Assembly (NCBI GenBank): GCA_030674875.1
Contig: JASXSU010000003.1
Span: 598,076 to 662,075, forward strand
DNA from: Candidatus Endonucleibacter sp. (ex Gigantidas childressi)
GTDB taxonomy: Bacteria; Pseudomonadota; Gammaproteobacteria; Pseudomonadales; Endozoicomonadaceae
Length of the DNA: 64,000 nucleotides
Reading direction: 5' to 3'
Made by a program: the position numbers and the translations under genes. Positions 34,269-42,497 of this stretch are shown here, one piece after another; within the stretch, counting starts at the first letter, position 1, and each line of letters starts with the position of its first letter. Below the pieces are notes generated by a model. That model was not told where the DNA came from. It worked only from the letters and a program-made list of their open reading frames with translations, and did no database searches.

Positions 34269-35271
34269 AGCTGTGAGAATATAGTTGTAGTAACAGGGTT
34301 TTGCTAATTTGTTGGTGTATTGTGGTTCTCTATCGCTATGAAGCACAAGTCACTTAGTTGGCTGTCGAAGATTGTAAGCCATTATCATCGCACTACTAAT
34401 TAAACCGGTTGTCATGCGTTTGTCTGTTGCCCCGCCAATATGCGGAGTGAGTAAAGGTCCAGTACTGGGATATACCTAGCCTTTGAAAGTCTTCAAAGAC
34501 GTTATACACTGGCCAACATTTGACCTTACCATACAGGTTAAAGTTTTTATTCAATAAATTAGTTGCAATATCTCCGTTATCCCCGTATTACGCCATAGTT
34601 GTCGCCTATTCTGATTTTTCCATCTTAATCATGGGTGGTCAGAGAGTGATCAATGCCGCGCTATTCAAAAGAGTTCAAATAGTTCAAAGAGTCCATAGTT
34701 CAGAAAATGCTTCTAGAGAGATCGGGTGTTGTGTTTTATTATAATGGTGGGTATAGTGATTCTGGAATATCAAACAGATAGGCTTGTATAGTCGTTTTAA
34801 ATAGATTAAGTTTTTTATGTTATGTTGCGCATAAGACCCAGCTTGCGCTGTCGGTATTAATTATTGGTTATAGTAATCCTGATGGTTTGTTTGCCTGTAG
34901 TGATATATATATTACCACTGCATCTGTGATCATCTGATGATTTGGGTGAGTGAAAATAGTTCATTTCTTCAAAGGTAATGGGTATATATTGGTGACATTA
35001 ACTGCTGACAAGAAGGTATATGATATTCCATATTATCTTTTATTAGTCTGTAGATAGACTGGGTTACCTCATGGTTATGGATTTGTTTGTAGGTTATTTA
35101 TCTGTTGTTGTTGGTAAAAACTTAATGTGTTTATAGGTGTGTCGTCGTATGATTAATATATTTATTATGGTAGTTTTTGAAGTTTCTTCTTTGTTGTCAG
35201 CGTTCGCTTATCGTAGTTGCTTAGTGCCTTCATCTTCTGTGGTGCCTCTCAATTGTCGACGTATAGCAAGC
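34269..35271. other. 1-kb gap with IS debris and repeats
   Basis: No intact gene. It holds a short transposase remnant at about 34653 (separate entry) and decayed interspersed repeats at about 34925-34992 (ends ggtaatgggtatata) and 35160-35245 (tcagcgttcgcttatcgtag). The frame 34520-34744 overlaps the remnant in another frame and is not supported. Confidence 0.6.
34653..34745 (+). pseudogene. Transposase N-terminal fragment (IS3/IS66-type HTH protein)
   Basis: ATG at 34653 reads MPRYSKEFK, a stop (TAG), then FKESIVQKMLLERSGV. This resembles the first residues of small helix-turn-helix transposase proteins that start MPRYS-EFK and continue K-SI-QKML. Only about 30 codons survive. Family is a guess from this short match. 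Confidence 0.45.
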
Positions 35272-35363
35272 CTAATTCATATACTAAGTGCTACACCCAA
35301 TTTAATAAAAACGATGAACTGCGATACCCTTGGTTTTTTGCTCCAATCACGAAGTAAAAACCT

Positions 35364-36448
35364 ATGAAGTATCAACAGCTCACCGAGGGTGATAGATATA
35401 TGATAGTCGCGCTAAAATGGCAAGGATTAAGTTTTACGGACATTGGCACAGCTATCGGAAAACACCGAAGTACCATATATCGAGAATTACAACGCAATAC
35501 TTGTTGGCATAAGGATGGCTCATATCGACCCATCAGGGCACAGCAAAGGACAAGAGCTAGACGCCGACGTTCAAGGATAAACCAACATTTTACAGAAAAT
35601 GATTACGTGATCATTAGGCAACTCTTACATAAACAATGGAGTCCTGAACAAATTACGGGTTACTTAAAATGGATAGGTGTACGTTGCTTTAGCCATGAAA
35701 CTATTTATCGATATATTTGGCGTGATAAAAAGAAAGGCGGCTTGCTATGGAAGCACTTGCGTTGTGCTCAAAAGCGTAGAGGTAAACTCTACAAGGCTTA
35801 TGATAGTCGAGGTAGGATTGCCAATAAGCGCAATATAGCAGACCGACCAGCTGAAGTAGAAACGCGTGAAACACTAGGTCATTGGGAAATAGATACCGTG
35901 ATGGGTAAAGGGTCTATATCCGTCGCCTTTCAAGTTGCTACGTTGTTGGCTGCGTTCGCTCACCCAGATCACCTACTACTCGTAGGTTCACGGGGCTTCG
36001 CTTACTTGCTGCCTAGTAGCAATTTGAAATGTTTTGGGTCTAAACACTGCGTAGTCACACTGGTTGAGCGAAAAACTGGTTACACATTGATAGGCCAGTT
36101 AAACGATAGAACGACCAAGTCAAGCAACAGGCGAACGATAAAATTAATGCGTAAAATGCCTGAGCAATTTAAAACCATTACATCAGATAACGACACCAAG
36201 TTTCACCAATATAAGAAAGTTGAAGAAGTGACTAATTGCCCTTATTACTTTGCCAACCCATAACACTCATGGGAACGTGGTACGAATGAAAATACCACTG
36301 GTTTGATCAGACAATGCTTAGTTAAGGGAACATCAATGGCAGAACTAACTCAGCAACGATGTAATATCATCTCGGCCAAATTAAATACAAGACCAAGGAA
36401 GCGGTTAACTTATAAAACACCTGAGGAATGCTTTTATGAATAACTATT
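35364..36448 (+). pseudogene. IS30 transposase with in-frame MITE and premature stop (type C)
   Basis: MKYQQLTEGDRYMIVALKWQ opens the HTH domain (residues 1-60). The first catalytic Asp lies in LGHWEIDTVMGKGS (about 185). The MITE then contributes about 41 residues (SVAFQVATLLAAFAHPDH...SSNLKCFG). KHCVVTLVERKTG follows, with the second Asp region SDNDTKF near 280. TAA stops the frame after FANP (300). Beyond it the reading frame continues with HSWERGTNENT, containing the third catalytic residue (Glu), to 36440. So the protein lacks the DDE Glu and is predicted inactive. The type B copy has the same stop. Confidence 0.88.
35915..36042 (+). repeat. Full-length MITE-like element read in frame in IS30 type C
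   Basis: Left end tatatccgtcgcctttcaag, right end ttgaaatgttttgggtcta. Net insertion is 124 bp plus the duplicated flank; the transposase frame stays open through it. Position is identical to that in the type B copy. Confidence 0.88.
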
Positions 36449-39400
36449 TTTGTCGCACTTCAAGCTTGATGCTAAGCAACGCCAAAGCATTTTGGGGTAC
36501 ACTGGTTACCATTGATGTTGTGCGGTTGTTGGTTGCTTTCACTGACATCATCCACCTAAGGCCCTTAGTGTCATCTGATTTCGCTCGTTTGTCGCCGATT
36601 TTCCCCTTCAAGTGTGGAGGTTGCGAGTTTGATTGTTATTCGATTTCTTTCTATTGCAAACATTTGATTAGCGTATTTGCCCTGTTAACTTTGATATGTA
36701 GTTTTAATGTAATTGCATATCAAAATCATACATCACAGGCAGATCAGTTGCATCAAGAGATAATCGATCAGCCAACTAAACAGAACTGGTTTTGTCGGCA
36801 ATTTGATAGAGCTACAAGCTTAATTGGAAGATGTTTTGATAAAGCTAATTTATCAGAAGGTTCTGAGTGTGGCAGAAGCAAGGGTCATAGCATTCGTCAT
36901 TTACAACATATGCTTGACGGAAATGATCTTTATAGAAAGCTAGAAGCATTTAAAGAAAAGCCTGTATTTGAAGTTCTTGCTATGGTTTATGTGTATATTT
37001 TGCTAGAAGTTGACGGGCTTGAGCAAGATATCATTGCAGCTGGGTTAGAGCCACCTTGCTGGCTAGGAGATTTTAGCGATATCACACAAGAAATAAAGAA
37101 GAAAGTTGGTGGTTGCCTGCCAAAAAGTAAAGAAACTCAGTTTACACTGTCAACTGAAAAAGAACAAAGAGCCGCTGAAAAGTGGTTAAATGCTAGAGCA
37201 AATCAATGTTTTTCTATGCTTCAAACCTTGCTGCAATATCAGGTTAATACGAATAAAACCAGTTCATTGGTTCATGTTAAGTTAAATGAGCAAGTAAGTC
37301 TATTGATGTCAATGGCAAAAAATAATACGGCCTTCTTCAATGAAGTTATCTTGAAGAGCCCGTATGACGTAGTGCATATATTGTTAAGCCATTATGTAGT
37401 AATGACAACAAGTGTCCAGCCAGTGGCGCCAGAGTTTCCAGTGTTAGAAGCGTTAGTTAGTTGGGCTATGAGTAATGCTGATAGTAAAATAAGTAAATTA
37501 TTAGCTGATAGCAAAGCTTGGTCTGAGACACAACATTCTACCGTAATAGAAGGATTTCAAAAAAGTGGAGTAAGCGAAAGTGATCAGGTTTTTTTCTGCT
37601 ATTTGAATAACCGTTTAACAACTAAAAGGTGTAATGCAGAGCAGTATTTATTTGACTTGGAGACAGAAGAAATTGCTGCAGAGATATTGGGTAGAGATAT
37701 TATTAAAAGTGTGATTTACGAATTTAAAACAGTAAAGCAATTGGCTGCCGTTTGTCAAAAAGGGCATGATAGTTTAAGTGCCATGCATAGCAATAGAGAG
37801 CAACAAGAAACCCTTAGTCCCTATGGTAAAATAAAAAAACAAAAAGAAGAGTTTAACCAAGAAGATATGGATGAGTATCTGCAACAGGGTATAAAGGAGA
37901 ATATAAAAAATAGTGTTTTTGGGAAAATTGCATCTAGTTTATCTTATGCATTTAATGCTATCAAAAGTAATTTTATTGCAACACCTACTAAGGAAGAGAA
38001 AAGCACAAGGGTCATGGTTGACTGGGTTAGGTTTGTACAAAAAAATGCTTCAAAATTAAAAAATGGAGACAAGGATGGAGGCGTAAAATTAGTCATGAGA
38101 GAGCTGGTGAAGCTAGATATCCAGCATGCGGGGGGTATATCTATATCAGATGCTTTAGTTGCACTAGTTAAGCAGAGGCTTGATACAGGTACGCAAGGGG
38201 ATGCATTCGCCCTGATAGCAGGGTTGGAGTGTAAATTAAATGAAAAGCAGAAAGAATGTTTTTCTAATTCGGCTACTCCTTACAGTGAGTATGTAGATCA
38301 AAATGTGAATAATGAATATGTAAATGCAAAAGACGAATTGGGTGCATCAGAAAGAGACGGTGTATTGCATGATCCTGATTTTGCGCAACAAGGCTGTAAT
38401 ATTGACTCTCTAGCTGAGCAGTGTGATCAATCATACTTACATCAGGACTGGTGTTTTATTAAAGAAGAAGATGAGGGTTCGGATAAAGATCTGTGCGGGG
38501 AAAGCAGAACGTTTTATTTAGGTTCTAGTAAGGGCCTGTGGTCTATGTTTGGCACGCTAATTACTATAGCATTGCCGGTATTTTTTATAGCTAATGTCAT
38601 TCCTGGTAATTATGCATATTCAGAACCTTCTTCGATGAGCGGCTATAATGCAACAGGGGTTATTGACATCACTAATTCCAAAGAATTGAGTATGATTGGT
38701 AATAACGTAATGTATCCTAGCTTTGGTAACTATAGGTTTATTAATAGCTTTAATGCTAGTAATTTCACTACACCAATAATGTCGTTTAGTGGTAAAATAA
38801 ATGGAAATAATCATACTATTTGTGATCTGCCCATCTGTTTAATACAGACCATTGAGGGTAATGGTACCGTTCAAAATCTAACTATCCGTAATGCTAATAT
38901 TACTTCTAAAGACTGTTCTGCGGTAGTTGCCGAAGTAATTAAAGATAATGCGCTTGTGCGCTTAGTTGATATTAAGAATAGCTATTTTTATGTGCAATAT
39001 GACGGCAGTATTGCTACTCCTGAGATGGGTGTTGTGGCCGAGAAAATGACTGGCTCATCTATAATTGAGAGGATAACTTTAATAGATACTAATATAATTT
39101 ATGCTATTAGTAGAAACATTTCAAGTGAAAATATTTTCACCGTCGGTGGTGTGGTAGGAGTAATGGCTGACTATTCAAAGATGAGCGATATTGCTGCAAT
39201 AAACACAAGCATTTGTACTGAAGGAAAAGCGCATAATTATATAGCAAAGGTTGGAGGTGCAGTAGGCTCTATACAAGACTCCGCTGTAATGAAAAACATT
39301 GTTTTTATAGATACTTATATAAAGGTTGGTGAGGGTCGATTATGGTTAGGTGGGGTGGTGGGAGAGCTCGTTGACTATACTGGCAGCATTTCCAATACTG

Positions 39401-40341
39401 TTAGTATTAACACGAGCCTGATAGTAGAAAATCCTGGTTCCTCATGTATTGCTTTGGGGGTGGGGATGGTTAGGGTTGGAGAAGCAAATATGCATCATAA
39501 CCTAGTTATTAATGGAACTATCAAGGTGGTAACTGACCTTCAAACAGCAATCGATAATATTATGGTAGACGTCGGTGCTGCGGTAGGGTCATACGGTTCG
39601 CAGGGCAATATAACGATGCTTAGATCCATTGATAATATCATAATCAACAGCAAAATAGAGAGAATAAGTCTAGGTAATTACAGTCATAGTGTCGTCGGTT
39701 CCTGTGCTGGGGCTGCTGACGAAATTTTCAAGAGCTTTTGCTCAATAGCTGATAATATTGACGTTTTAGCTATCTCCAGTAAAACTAAAGCTGACACAGC
39801 TCAGTCCTATGGTTATGAAAGTGGCACGACTTTGATGAATAGCTATAAAAAAACATCAAACGTGGTTGATCAATGCAAGTGGGTTAGGCTTTTTTTTATA
39901 AATGACGAATGTAACTTGGGAGAGGACAAACTTGATATTTTTAAGGAGCGTGTAAGAGATGTTAATTTGTATAGTGTATTTGAAGACAGTGTTAAATCAT
40001 CATCTACAGTGAAGACTGCATCGTCAAAAACAGCAATACTTGTTGCTGCTATTGGTTCTGGATCTACTATAGCCGTTGCTGTTATTTCTGGTGGTTGTTA
40101 TTGTAATAAAAAAAGTAAAAGTAACAGTAACGGTAACAGTAGCGGTAATGGTAACAGAGCTGAAAGGGTGGACTGTTCTTTAAATTGTTGTTCTTTAAAT
40201 TGTAATTATTCGTCTGTACGTGAGGTAACTTCTACAGACGAAGTAGTAACTCTAGACACAGGCGCTACAGAGAATATTATCCTAATAGACGTAGTAAAGA
40301 AGGGAGACGCTAAAGAAAGTGATCATATGCTGGGTCAGTGA
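36436..40341 (+). CDS. Large putative membrane-anchored surface protein with beta-solenoid-like repeats
   Basis: Open for 1301 codons. The first ATG lies in the right end of the IS30 copy, and residues 1-65 look like translated IS/repeat DNA. A more natural start may be TTG at 36664, which gives a signal-like MISVFALLTLICSFNVIAYQ. Visible parts: an alpha-helical, cysteine-containing region (about 100-680); a hydrophobic helix (about 700-722); GLUG-like repeats (about 740-1120) such as FSGKINGNNHTI and VGGVVGVMADY; a Ser/Thr linker; a transmembrane helix with Gly/Ala/Val (about 1195-1220); and a Ser/Asn/Gly- and Cys-rich tail. No catalytic motif is seen. Architecture suggests an exported, host- or surface-interacting protein; function unknown. 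Confidence 0.75.
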   Translation: MNNYFCRTSSLMLSNAKAFWGTLVTIDVVRLLVAFTDIIHLRPLVSSDFARLSPIFPFKCGGCEFDCYSISFYCKHLISVFALLTLICSFNVIAYQNHTSQADQLHQEIIDQPTKQNWFCRQFDRATSLIGRCFDKANLSEGSECGRSKGHSIRHLQHMLDGNDLYRKLEAFKEKPVFEVLAMVYVYILLEVDGLEQDIIAAGLEPPCWLGDFSDITQEIKKKVGGCLPKSKETQFTLSTEKEQRAAEKWLNARANQCFSMLQTLLQYQVNTNKTSSLVHVKLNEQVSLLMSMAKNNTAFFNEVILKSPYDVVHILLSHYVVMTTSVQPVAPEFPVLEALVSWAMSNADSKISKLLADSKAWSETQHSTVIEGFQKSGVSESDQVFFCYLNNRLTTKRCNAEQYLFDLETEEIAAEILGRDIIKSVIYEFKTVKQLAAVCQKGHDSLSAMHSNREQQETLSPYGKIKKQKEEFNQEDMDEYLQQGIKENIKNSVFGKIASSLSYAFNAIKSNFIATPTKEEKSTRVMVDWVRFVQKNASKLKNGDKDGGVKLVMRELVKLDIQHAGGISISDALVALVKQRLDTGTQGDAFALIAGLECKLNEKQKECFSNSATPYSEYVDQNVNNEYVNAKDELGASERDGVLHDPDFAQQGCNIDSLAEQCDQSYLHQDWCFIKEEDEGSDKDLCGESRTFYLGSSKGLWSMFGTLITIALPVFFIANVIPGNYAYSEPSSMSGYNATGVIDITNSKELSMIGNNVMYPSFGNYRFINSFNASNFTTPIMSFSGKINGNNHTICDLPICLIQTIEGNGTVQNLTIRNANITSKDCSAVVAEVIKDNALVRLVDIKNSYFYVQYDGSIATPEMGVVAEKMTGSSIIERITLIDTNIIYAISRNISSENIFTVGGVVGVMADYSKMSDIAAINTSICTEGKAHNYIAKVGGAVGSIQDSAVMKNIVFIDTYIKVGEGRLWLGGVVGELVDYTGSISNTVSINTSLIVENPGSSCIALGVGMVRVGEANMHHNLVINGTIKVVTDLQTAIDNIMVDVGAAVGSYGSQGNITMLRSIDNIIINSKIERISLGNYSHSVVGSCAGAADEIFKSFCSIADNIDVLAISSKTKADTAQSYGYESGTTLMNSYKKTSNVVDQCKWVRLFFINDECNLGEDKLDIFKERVRDVNLYSVFEDSVKSSSTVKTASSKTAILVAAIGSGSTIAVAVISGGCYCNKKSKSNSNGNSSGNGNRAERVDCSLNCCSLNCNYSSVREVTSTDEVVTLDTGATENIILIDVVKKGDAKESDHMLGQ

Positions 40342-41146
40342 TCTGTACCAGTGTGAGGTTGTTGATTGCTTTTCGGTGGTATGGTAGATACCAGTAGACT
40401 TTGAAATTTATACTTTATTGTCAGCATTCGCTCACCACAGAAGCCTATCTACGGGACAAAAAAACCTGAAGCTCTTGATTTTCAAAATTTAATTAGTATG
40501 AGGTGGCTTCCAGATAGGCAACCTGCACGGTCTTTTACCACGGAAGAGGTTATGGTTGTTAAACATGAAAGACGTAAATTCATTGGCCGAAAAGCTTAAA
40601 AGTTATCTGCCCCTGCATCAAGCTCTAATCAGTTTGTACTGGCGCTAACTTGTACCGTGTATCCGAAGGGTTTCAAGCGAGACCAGTTATCGCCGTATAA
40701 AGCGATTTTTAGTTGACTATGACTACAGTTTTGAACAGCTAGGAGAGCTGATTCTGAGTTGTTGGTATCAATAGCTTGGAAAGGGGTCTCAATTTTCATT
40801 GTTTGAGGTGTATTAACAAAAAAGGAGGAAGCTAGGAACGCATAGCGGTGATGGAGTATGTACTAAATCTCATGCCGATAAAATGAATTAATAACCTTTT
40901 GGAAGGTCGTGAATTTATAGGCCACAAATGGTTTGACTAGCTACGCTAAAACAAACTGTCATGCAGGATTTTGGTTAAAATCAGCAACGTTTGTTCTGTA
41001 CATAGTATAGAGCTTATAGCTCCTAATCTTCTGTGGTTCAGCTGATTTGTTGCTGCGTAGCAACCCCAAATTATTTGAGTATATAATAACTATCGTTAGC
41101 GTTTCTTGATCACTTATGACTACAATGTAAATAGACTATAGGGTTC
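40342..41146. other. 805-bp gap after the large surface-protein gene
   Basis: Decayed interspersed repeats at about 40350-40445 (ttgtcagcattcgctcaccac) and 41035-41085 (ttgttgctgcgtagcaaccc ... gagtatata). The middle has only short frames with stops. No gene is supportable. The downstream coiled-coil gene probably has its promoter near 41090-41140. Confidence 0.55.
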
Positions 41147-42409
41147 ATGGATGGAGAGATAGATATGACGTCAGGAATGGATGGTGTAAGTGGGAATTCA
41201 TCGATTAAATCTATGAATCAGCCAAATTCTTCTCCAGTAACTTCTAAGCAGACTGGAGATTTGAACGGATTGAAAGTGTCTGTGGAGGATGCTGCTGCTA
41301 CCAAAGGGTTAAAGAGCGGTCTTGTGGATGGGGAGTCTAAGGCTAAGCCTACTATAAAAAGCATTATATTGAGGAAAGTTGCAAAAGTAAAACAGGACGT
41401 AACTGCCAAGGTTAAGAGTACGGGCACTCGCATAGGAAGAGGGGCAGCCAAAGAAATAGTGCATGGATTATCTGTAGTTAAGCGCTTTATCTTGAATGAA
41501 AGCTTCAGCAAGATTAATTCAGAATCATTTGGAAAGTGCTCTGCGGGTACGCAAAAAAAAATAAGTTTGGTACGTGATTCTTACAATGAAAAGTGTGATG
41601 AATCAAAAGAATTAAAAAAAGAAATGGTTGGTTTGCAAAAGAGTGGGGTATCATTTAAAGATCAACATTCTACTAGTATGAGTGTTATAGATAAGCCTTC
41701 TGTTGCAGAGAATGCAAAGACTATTCTGATTCTTACTATGCCTGACGGTGCTGATAATATTATAATTCCAGCCCCTAGCCTTAGAAATGGAGGCACGAGG
41801 CAGAAGGAAATTGAAAAGTTTGCTACAAATTTTAAAAATAGCGATGATTTCAAAAAATATGAGAATGATCAGGAGCGAATTGCCATTATTAAGGAAGAAA
41901 GGTCAGTATTAAAGTCAGCTATGAAAAACTCAAAAGAACGCATGCTAAAAGCATTTAAGAAAGATCTTAGTGGGAGATCTAAGGAGGCTGGCTATGTTCA
42001 TTCAGGGCAATCTACTGAAACTAGCAAGCGAGTGCATGGTGATAATAAAGTATTGAATGAAAATATAAAAGAGGCGCGGCAAGAGTTGAAAAGTGTGGAA
42101 GATGAGGTGATTAGTTTGGATATAAGGATTGTAGAGATTGATGAAAATATCGAGAACGCTAAGAGTAATATCAGAGGTGGTGTAGATGGTGAGATTGCCG
42201 ATCTATCAAAACAATTAAAGGGTACCAGAAAATTACTGAAGTCTACTTTGTTAGACGTGGATAATAAAAAAGCTGAGTTAAAAAAAGTTATAGCAAGTGA
42301 GATAAAAAAAGAAAAAGAGAAAGAAGTGTCTGAATTTAAGAAGTTAATTAGTTATGATAGGGGGAGTTTAACCAAGAGGATATGGATGAATATTGGCAAC
42401 AAGGTATAA
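41147..42409 (+). CDS. Coiled-coil protein of unknown function, C-terminus altered
   Basis: 420 residues; ATG at 41147 or 41165. The protein is hydrophilic and Lys/Glu-rich, without signal peptide or membrane helix. The N-terminal 60 residues are Ser/Gly/Asn-rich and disordered-looking. Long heptad-like helices cover about 230-400 (for example LNENIKEARQELKSVEDEVI). It ends after a frame change: in the +1 frame the DNA continues with a segment nearly identical to residues about 475-515 of the large protein upstream (EFNQEDMDEYWQQGIKEN). Thus the natural protein probably extended further. Features are compatible with a secreted effector, but no secretion signal is provable. Confidence 0.65.
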   Translation: MDGEIDMTSGMDGVSGNSSIKSMNQPNSSPVTSKQTGDLNGLKVSVEDAAATKGLKSGLVDGESKAKPTIKSIILRKVAKVKQDVTAKVKSTGTRIGRGAAKEIVHGLSVVKRFILNESFSKINSESFGKCSAGTQKKISLVRDSYNEKCDESKELKKEMVGLQKSGVSFKDQHSTSMSVIDKPSVAENAKTILILTMPDGADNIIIPAPSLRNGGTRQKEIEKFATNFKNSDDFKKYENDQERIAIIKEERSVLKSAMKNSKERMLKAFKKDLSGRSKEAGYVHSGQSTETSKRVHGDNKVLNENIKEARQELKSVEDEVISLDIRIVEIDENIENAKSNIRGGVDGEIADLSKQLKGTRKLLKSTLLDVDNKKAELKKVIASEIKKEKEKEVSEFKKLISYDRGSLTKRIWMNIGNKV

Positions 42410-42497
42410 AGGAGAATATAAAAAATAGCGTTTTTGGTAAAATTGCATCTATTTTATCTTATGCATTTAATGAGATCAAAAGTAATTTTATTACAAT
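42360..42497 (+). repeat. Duplicated ~135-bp coding module (copy of 37850-37985)
   Basis: Nucleotides 42364-42496 match 37850-37982 at nearly every position. Both encode FNQEDMDEY-QQGIKEN followed by IKNSVFGKIAS-LSYAFN. The match ends exactly where the IS30 type A fragment begins at about 42499. The downstream half of the host gene is therefore missing, through IS insertion or recombination. Confidence 0.88.

Follow-up and report, generated by a model that had tools for sequence, protein, structure and literature searches.

The stretch of DNA analyzed here, which we call the window, comprises 64,000 nucleotides of the genome of Candidatus Endonucleibacter sp. (ex Gigantidas childressi) (GenBank assembly GCA_030674875.1, contig JASXSU010000003.1, positions 598,076 to 662,075). 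It contains an open reading frame (ORF) of 1,301 codons at positions 36436-40341, for which the original prediction gave the correct coordinates and length, while describing its product as a single giant protein resembling those of eukaryotes. Judging from our sequence comparisons, the ORF instead belongs, as a diverged member, to a multigene family restricted to one lineage: there are 43 paralogous loci including this one, its beta-solenoid is closest to that of the bacterial M26 IgA1 proteases, and its N-terminal domain was unmatched in the genomes searched outside its own. The reading that we favor, and consider reasonably probable, is that the family constitutes a repertoire of variable exposed proteins generated by duplication, recombination, and diversifying selection, in which the window copy is either silent or driven from an adjoining insertion sequence (IS). 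We infer that the proteins are exposed and expressed, and that they bind a ligand.

Copy number and distribution of the family

The genome (3,679,278 bases in 12 contigs) holds 43 loci with more than 300 residues of the N-terminal domain, in addition to two pieces of 117 and 51 residues. Three arrays account for 28 of these loci and are located at C1:141-191 kb (11 loci), at C3:1314-1356 kb (9), and on contig C6 (8); the remaining 15 occur as pairs, at contig ends, or as single copies. The family ORFs total 159,673 bases, or 4.3% of the assembly. Twenty-eight ORFs have at least 1,200 amino acids (aa): 24 with a paralog-type start (one of them reaching a contig end), two with a truncated 5' end, one with a late start, and the window ORF. 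Of the 43 loci, 19 are without a complete paralog-type ORF of this length (two of these 19 have other C-terminal modules), and eight copies share a common 5' truncation, with 520-bp upstream sequences that are 99.0-100% identical. In C3_467621 and C3_201895 (L062:4625-7231 and L065:3899-7051, both on the minus strand), the family N-terminal domain is followed by other C-terminal modules, Glu/Arg-rich and Cys-rich; such alternative modules suggest that this domain may be a modular carrier.

The nearest paralogs of the window copy are a tandem pair on contig C2, at 46% identity, and it belongs to a diverged branch of the family. A 133-bp remnant downstream is 92% identical to positions 37849-37981 of the window; therefore, a second copy once stood there.

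A profile of the N-terminal domain (A2) matched one of 37 genomes of the taxonomic family and one of 369 genomes of the class, both times the genome to which the window belongs. When 93 other relatives were searched with a single sequence, scoring up to seven candidates per genome, only the solenoid region was matched, in eight genomes, at 22-40% identity; with the thresholds applied, none of these solenoid proteins of other Endozoicomonadaceae-like relatives showed the N-terminal domain. Scanning a collection of genome contigs with part of the window protein gave 11 pattern matches, none of which was confirmed; neither a scan of viral contigs with A2 nor a tblastn search of plasmids gave a result. 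Our literature searches found no published description of this family.

Selection and recombination

The ratio of nonsynonymous to synonymous substitution rates (Ka/Ks) was averaged over 23 array-type ORFs of at least 1,200 aa, a core set that includes the two 5'-truncated ORFs and the late-starting one, and leaves out shorter ORFs and five diverged long ones (the window ORF, the C2 pair, C1_472091, and C3_1252816). Mean values, taken over pairs that are not independent, were 1.37 for the signal part (190 pairs), 0.60 and 0.45 for the helical domain, 0.71 for the linker, 0.52 for the first membrane segment, 1.78 for the solenoid, and 1.21 and 2.12 for the C-terminal parts. The N-terminal half is nearly identical among array copies. 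In gap-guarded segments of 60 alignment columns, Ka/Ks was mostly 0.2-0.5 in the helical part, and all solenoid segments after the first lay between 1.28 and 3.00.

The C2 pair derives from a duplication of about 7 kb (approximately L061:690-8500 and L061:8480-16500) that carried neighboring genes. Across the first 700 codons, its two members are separated by 4 synonymous changes and as many nonsynonymous ones; in codons 701-1090, the counts are 3.67 synonymous and 38.33 nonsynonymous. The noncoding flanks are identical at 583 of 586 and 446 of 450 positions, so that nonsynonymous change in the C2 solenoids has been 6 times faster than change in these flanks (p = 1.9e-7 for the excess). The duplicated block is recent and comprises a serC-like gene, an aroA-like piece, and the family member, whose solenoid changes fastest. 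Among seven close array pairs, the ratio of nonsynonymous to synonymous changes ranged from 2.1 to 8.7 in the solenoid, from 4.5 to 11 in the part that follows, and from 1.3 to 2.8 in the N-terminal part. Entropy was higher at positions where the window residue is not V, I, L, A, G, M, or F (0.66 versus 0.39, p = 8e-4).

The trees of different segments conflict, and sites are incompatible among copies (C1_4452 was also left out of the incompatibility analysis). The copies are therefore mosaic, and recombination among them is clear. We rejected a diversity-generating retroelement as the diversifier: the substitutions in codons 701-1090 of the C2 pair (AG 12, CT 11, AC 7, GT 7, CG 3, AT 2) are not adenine-biased, a reverse transcriptase not having been searched for. 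By sequence, the copies show an excess of amino-acid change in the solenoid and C-terminal part, together with duplication, N-terminal homogenization, and mosaic exchange.

Protein architecture and fold

A complete member of the family opens with a signal-peptide-like start and a helical domain of about 570 residues. A membrane segment then leads to the beta-solenoid, after which a Pro/Thr-rich linker is often present, and the protein closes with another membrane segment and a short tail. In the window ORF, hydrophobic segments called by the Kyte-Doolittle scale at a threshold of 1.6 lie at residues 18-36 (weak and in the foreign part), 70-88, 177-195 (within the helical domain), 704-722, and 1199-1217. 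The large helical part and the C-terminal transmembrane helix with its tail had been predicted and are present; the strong segment at 704-722 had not been recorded. The model of the N-terminal part gave no confident fold (mean predicted local distance difference test score, pLDDT, 47.4; predicted template modeling score, pTM, 0.31) and was too poor for a fold search. A search of the Protein Data Bank (PDB) with the A2 profile returned one hit, monalysin, which at an E-value of 0.26 is not credible, and an NCBIfam scan of five members had no credible hit.

The solenoid was predicted with block-mean pLDDT values of 69-97 (24 of the 27 available rows of the structure alignment A3 were used). When this predicted structure was compared with known ones, the closest fold was that of the bacterial M26 IgA1 proteases, and solenoids of phage tailspikes and bacterial surface proteins were also among the matches. 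The original prediction of GLUG-like repeats holds for the solenoid itself and for its visible GG-rich repeats, but the Pfam family GLUG was not listed at E<=1 in the window ORF or in five paralogs. The sole Pfam match of the window ORF at E<=1 was Peptidase_M26_N at residues 784-844 (23.1 bits, under the cut-off of 27.7), which Pfam did not list for the five paralogs scanned.

Two functional candidates were rejected. An active IgA1-type protease is contradicted by the absence of the zinc-binding motif HExxH from the 28 ORFs of at least 1,200 aa and of any M26 catalytic family from the Pfam matches of the window ORF and five paralogs at E<=1. As to a host-type glycoprotein, the excess of N-x-S/T sites over shuffled sequences is not consistent across the copies tested: 13 versus 5.7 in the window solenoid (residues 736-1115, p = 0.001), 6 versus 4.8 in an array copy (p = 0.34), and 10 versus 5.8 in a C2 copy (p = 0.047).

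The upstream region and the start of the window copy

Upstream regions were aligned for 26 ORFs of at least 690 aa picked by their first three residues, a choice that selects array-type copies. In all 26, the element TATAATCAGGAGT stands shortly 5' of the ATG. Further upstream lies an 11-bp imperfect repeat, of which, allowing at most one mismatch, 0, 1, 2, and 3 units occur in 1, 12, 9, and 4 copies, respectively. From its sequence, the upstream element is a putative promoter.

The window copy begins differently (Table 1). It is preceded by an IS30-type element, to which six near-full-length copies elsewhere in the genome are 93-95% identical. Membership of the IS30 family is indicated by an HTH_38 match (5.9e-13), by inverted ends, and by the copies; in the broken frame, the Pfam match to rve reaches 18.7 bits, which is under the cut-off. 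The label IS30 itself we take from the original prediction and from the HTH_38/rve domain pair. The right end of the copies corresponds to 36476 in five of the six and to 36469 in the sixth; therefore, the ATG at 36436, whose frame has its preceding in-frame stop at 36406, lies inside the last 41 bp of the IS and adjoins the terminal repeat; an ORF start in the IS had been predicted. This ATG and the final codons of the transposase frame overlap. The insert of about 120 bp in the element also stands alone elsewhere in the genome, and several IS copies are without it.

Table 1. Features of the window ORF and its surroundings, in window positions.
Feature	Position	Strand	Remarks
IS30-type element	35270..36476	+	Transposase frame broken (ORF 35364-36263, 299 aa); ~120-bp insert near 35915-36044
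ORF under study, 1301 codons	36436..40341	+	
ORF codons 1-13 and part of codon 14	36436..36476	+	Right end of the IS
Degenerate dispersed repeat	36498..36614	.	Read as ORF residues ~21-60; matches many short genome stretches, 67-100% identity
Codon 61	36616..36618	+	Position of the paralogs' ATG; here GGA, no start codon
Residues 70-88, hydrophobic segment	36643..36699	+	Native; at the place of the paralogs' signal-peptide-like N-terminus
Residues 96-631, helical domain	36721..38328	+	Family-specific; no confident fold
Residues 704-722, first strong membrane segment	38545..38601	+	Kyte-Doolittle
Residues 738-1037, predicted right-handed-type parallel beta-solenoid	38647..39546	+	M26 IgA1 protease-like; part diversifying in the family
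Residues 1199-1217, C-terminal membrane segment	40030..40086	+	Followed by a Lys/Ser/Asn-rich tail
Remnant of a second family copy, 133 bp	42364..42496	+	4.5 kb downstream

Beyond the IS, foreign bases continue from 36477 to about 36627, so that codons 1 to about 63 are IS and repeat DNA, in agreement with the predicted foreign origin of the first ~65 residues. Homology to the paralogs, whose start codons correspond to residue 61, starts at residue 64-65. Accordingly, the first 76 residues, whose conservation had been proposed as a check, are not conserved over positions 1-63 and are conserved from 64 onward. The family element TATAATCAGGAGT was not found between positions 34269 and 36700. With GGA at codon 61 and the upstream element absent, the copy has therefore lost its native start codon together with the region upstream of it. 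In the nearest genomes, GlyA stands at 82% (G001), and both neighbors of the window gene lie far apart there.

The proposal that the IS either gave the gene a new start or displaced its promoter stands insofar as IS and repeat DNA replaces the start codon and the upstream element of the paralogs; the start within the IS is a putative one. Most likely, the IS cut the window copy off from its own control, and the copy is now silent or transcribed from the IS side, with translation perhaps re-started at the ATG overlapping the transposase end. That its frame is still open over such a length points either to a start lost only recently or to ongoing use from the side of the IS.

Genome context

Downstream of the ORF, the intergenic stretch 40342-41146 is 68-85% identical to stretches near several other family copies and is probably a dispersed element. 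It is followed by an ORF of 420 aa (41147-42409), coiled-coil and single-copy in the genome, which matches Pfam SNARE weakly, at 16.3 bits against a cut-off of 26.8; its 3' end enters the 133-bp family remnant out of frame.

BIR domains, which are typical of apoptosis inhibitors, number 28 in this genome (12 open frames) and 11 and 9 in two congeners, and were found in none of 14 control genomes. Genes with BIR domains flank the largest array (C1:138657-139193 and C1:199218-199424). Candidatus Endonucleobacter is reported to be an intranuclear parasite of deep-sea mussels with 7 and 13 genes of apoptosis-inhibitor type (PMC11521996); no mention of a paralog, surface protein, or membrane protein was found in the main text of that paper, which names PRIDE PXD020317 for infected mussel tissue. 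The BIR domains of the present genome suggest an origin in this genus or a near relative.

Comparison with known systems

The closest working analogue would be the vlhA type of Mycoplasma gallisepticum, where complete genes are reported to stand in tandem, each keeping a promoter under the control of a variable repeat (PMC4534519). The likeness is one of layout, a sequence relation having been neither sought nor seen: here too, full-length copies stand in tandem, each array-type copy with its own upstream element and mostly a variable short repeat nearby, and the products diverge; however, vlhA genes encode lipoproteins and have a trinucleotide repeat, whereas in the present family the repeat is imperfect and 11 bp long, and the products have membrane segments and a solenoid. 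The msp2 system of Anaplasma, as outlined in PMC4534519, shares the promoterless truncated copies beside complete ones and the mosaic sequences, but here 24 of the 43 loci are complete with paralog-type starts, and no single expression site was recognized. In the 5'-truncated copies we see possible donors.

Mycobacterial PE/PPE and Leishmania PSA are likewise described as expanded families, in which the N-terminal part is conserved or positive selection acts along with recombination, although the proteins are unrelated to those described here. The M26 IgA1 metalloproteases (PDB 7uvk, 7uvl, 6xja, 6xjb) have an N-terminal beta-helix whose fold the window solenoid resembles; unlike them, the family had no catalytic domains matched, and its M26_N match was under the cut-off.

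Alternative explanations

If the family is a repertoire of variable exposed proteins, its solenoid would face a changing partner, whether immune or receptor molecules of the host or some other antagonist, and the N-terminal half would perform a constant task (export, assembly, or anchoring). Tandem duplication and gene conversion on the identical N-terminal halves would supply the variants, and these halves, with the conserved upstream regions, may serve as anchors for exchange. Several observations weigh against this. An N-terminal signal, two membrane segments, and positive charges behind the last one cannot simply be reconciled in one topology, and an inner-membrane protein of a Gram-negative cell would not face the host. 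Ka/Ks exceeded 1 in 4 of 12 segments of the N-terminal half (1.97, 1.13, 2.00, and 1.22) and was 0.80 in the first solenoid segment. For the C2 pair, the tests within the solenoid against synonymous sites (binomial p = 0.036) and of the solenoid against the N-terminal part (Fisher p = 0.016) are modest, and its variable sites are not enriched in loops (strand 19/174, other positions 11/96); nor do the solenoid ratios of the seven close array pairs always exceed the neutral value of ~3.6. The window copy itself bears no sign of use. Contig ends lie in the arrays, which makes the copy number uncertain in both directions, and the assembly may hold duplicates of some near-identical units (C6:30199-33358 matches C1:1339-4497 at 99.56% identity). 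All these points bear equally on adhesin-like proteins that bind a conserved host ligand, with that ligand rather than the immune system driving change; this variant, which we hold to be somewhat doubtful, differs from the favored reading only in the selecting agent.

We regard it as improbable that the arrays arose as a side effect of tandem amplification and of IS activity under relaxed constraint, with many pseudogenes, including the window ORF. The 19 loci lacking a complete ORF, the eight copies with one common truncation, and the lost start of the window copy fit such a history, which however predicts a Ka/Ks near 1 rather than 1.8, would not have spared the N-terminal half or 24 complete ORFs, and is at odds with C2 solenoids that outpace their noncoding flanks. 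We would give equally little credence to diversification against bacteria or phages instead of the host, as in a kin-recognition surface system or a phage-driven receptor set. The same selection pattern would be equally expected there, and beta-solenoids are common in the phage tailspikes and bacterial surface proteins found among the fold matches; against it, Pfam and NCBIfam scans (the window ORF and five members each) revealed neither a toxin domain nor an immunity gene nor a secretion partner attached to the family ORFs scanned, and no small partner gene is interspersed between successive array copies. For the window copy only, the IS end might supply a working start from which a chimeric protein is made: GAGGAA precedes the ATG at the usual distance, the ATG overlaps the end of the transposase frame, and 1,237 native codons are still open. 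In such a chimera, though, the native signal-like segment would begin only at residue ~70, and the transposase frame upstream is broken. We rate this possibility as unlikely.

Implications

A putative host-interface role, proposed in the original prediction, is indirectly strengthened by the diversifying selection. With due reserve, we advance a specific form of it: a bacterium that probably dwells in the cells of an invertebrate, a host without antibodies, may maintain a repertoire in the manner of VSG or vlhA, comprising at least 43 mosaic solenoid genes that bear promoters and occupy about 4% of the genome, with an N-terminal domain so far seen in its own genome only and a solenoid varied against host recognition molecules. 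If true, this would be a large system resembling antigenic variation, directed against innate immunity or against host receptors that vary. The window copy also provides an example of an IS severing a family member from its control region while leaving more than 1,200 codons open. The published infection-stage RNA and protein data of a relative make the use of the family directly testable. The best-known hypervariable multigene families are those of parasites whose animal hosts have adaptive immunity; should the present family be expressed at the host interface, it would be a case in a lineage with host-derived apoptosis-inhibitor domains, probably Candidatus Endonucleobacter or a near relative, where selection must come from something other than adaptive immunity.
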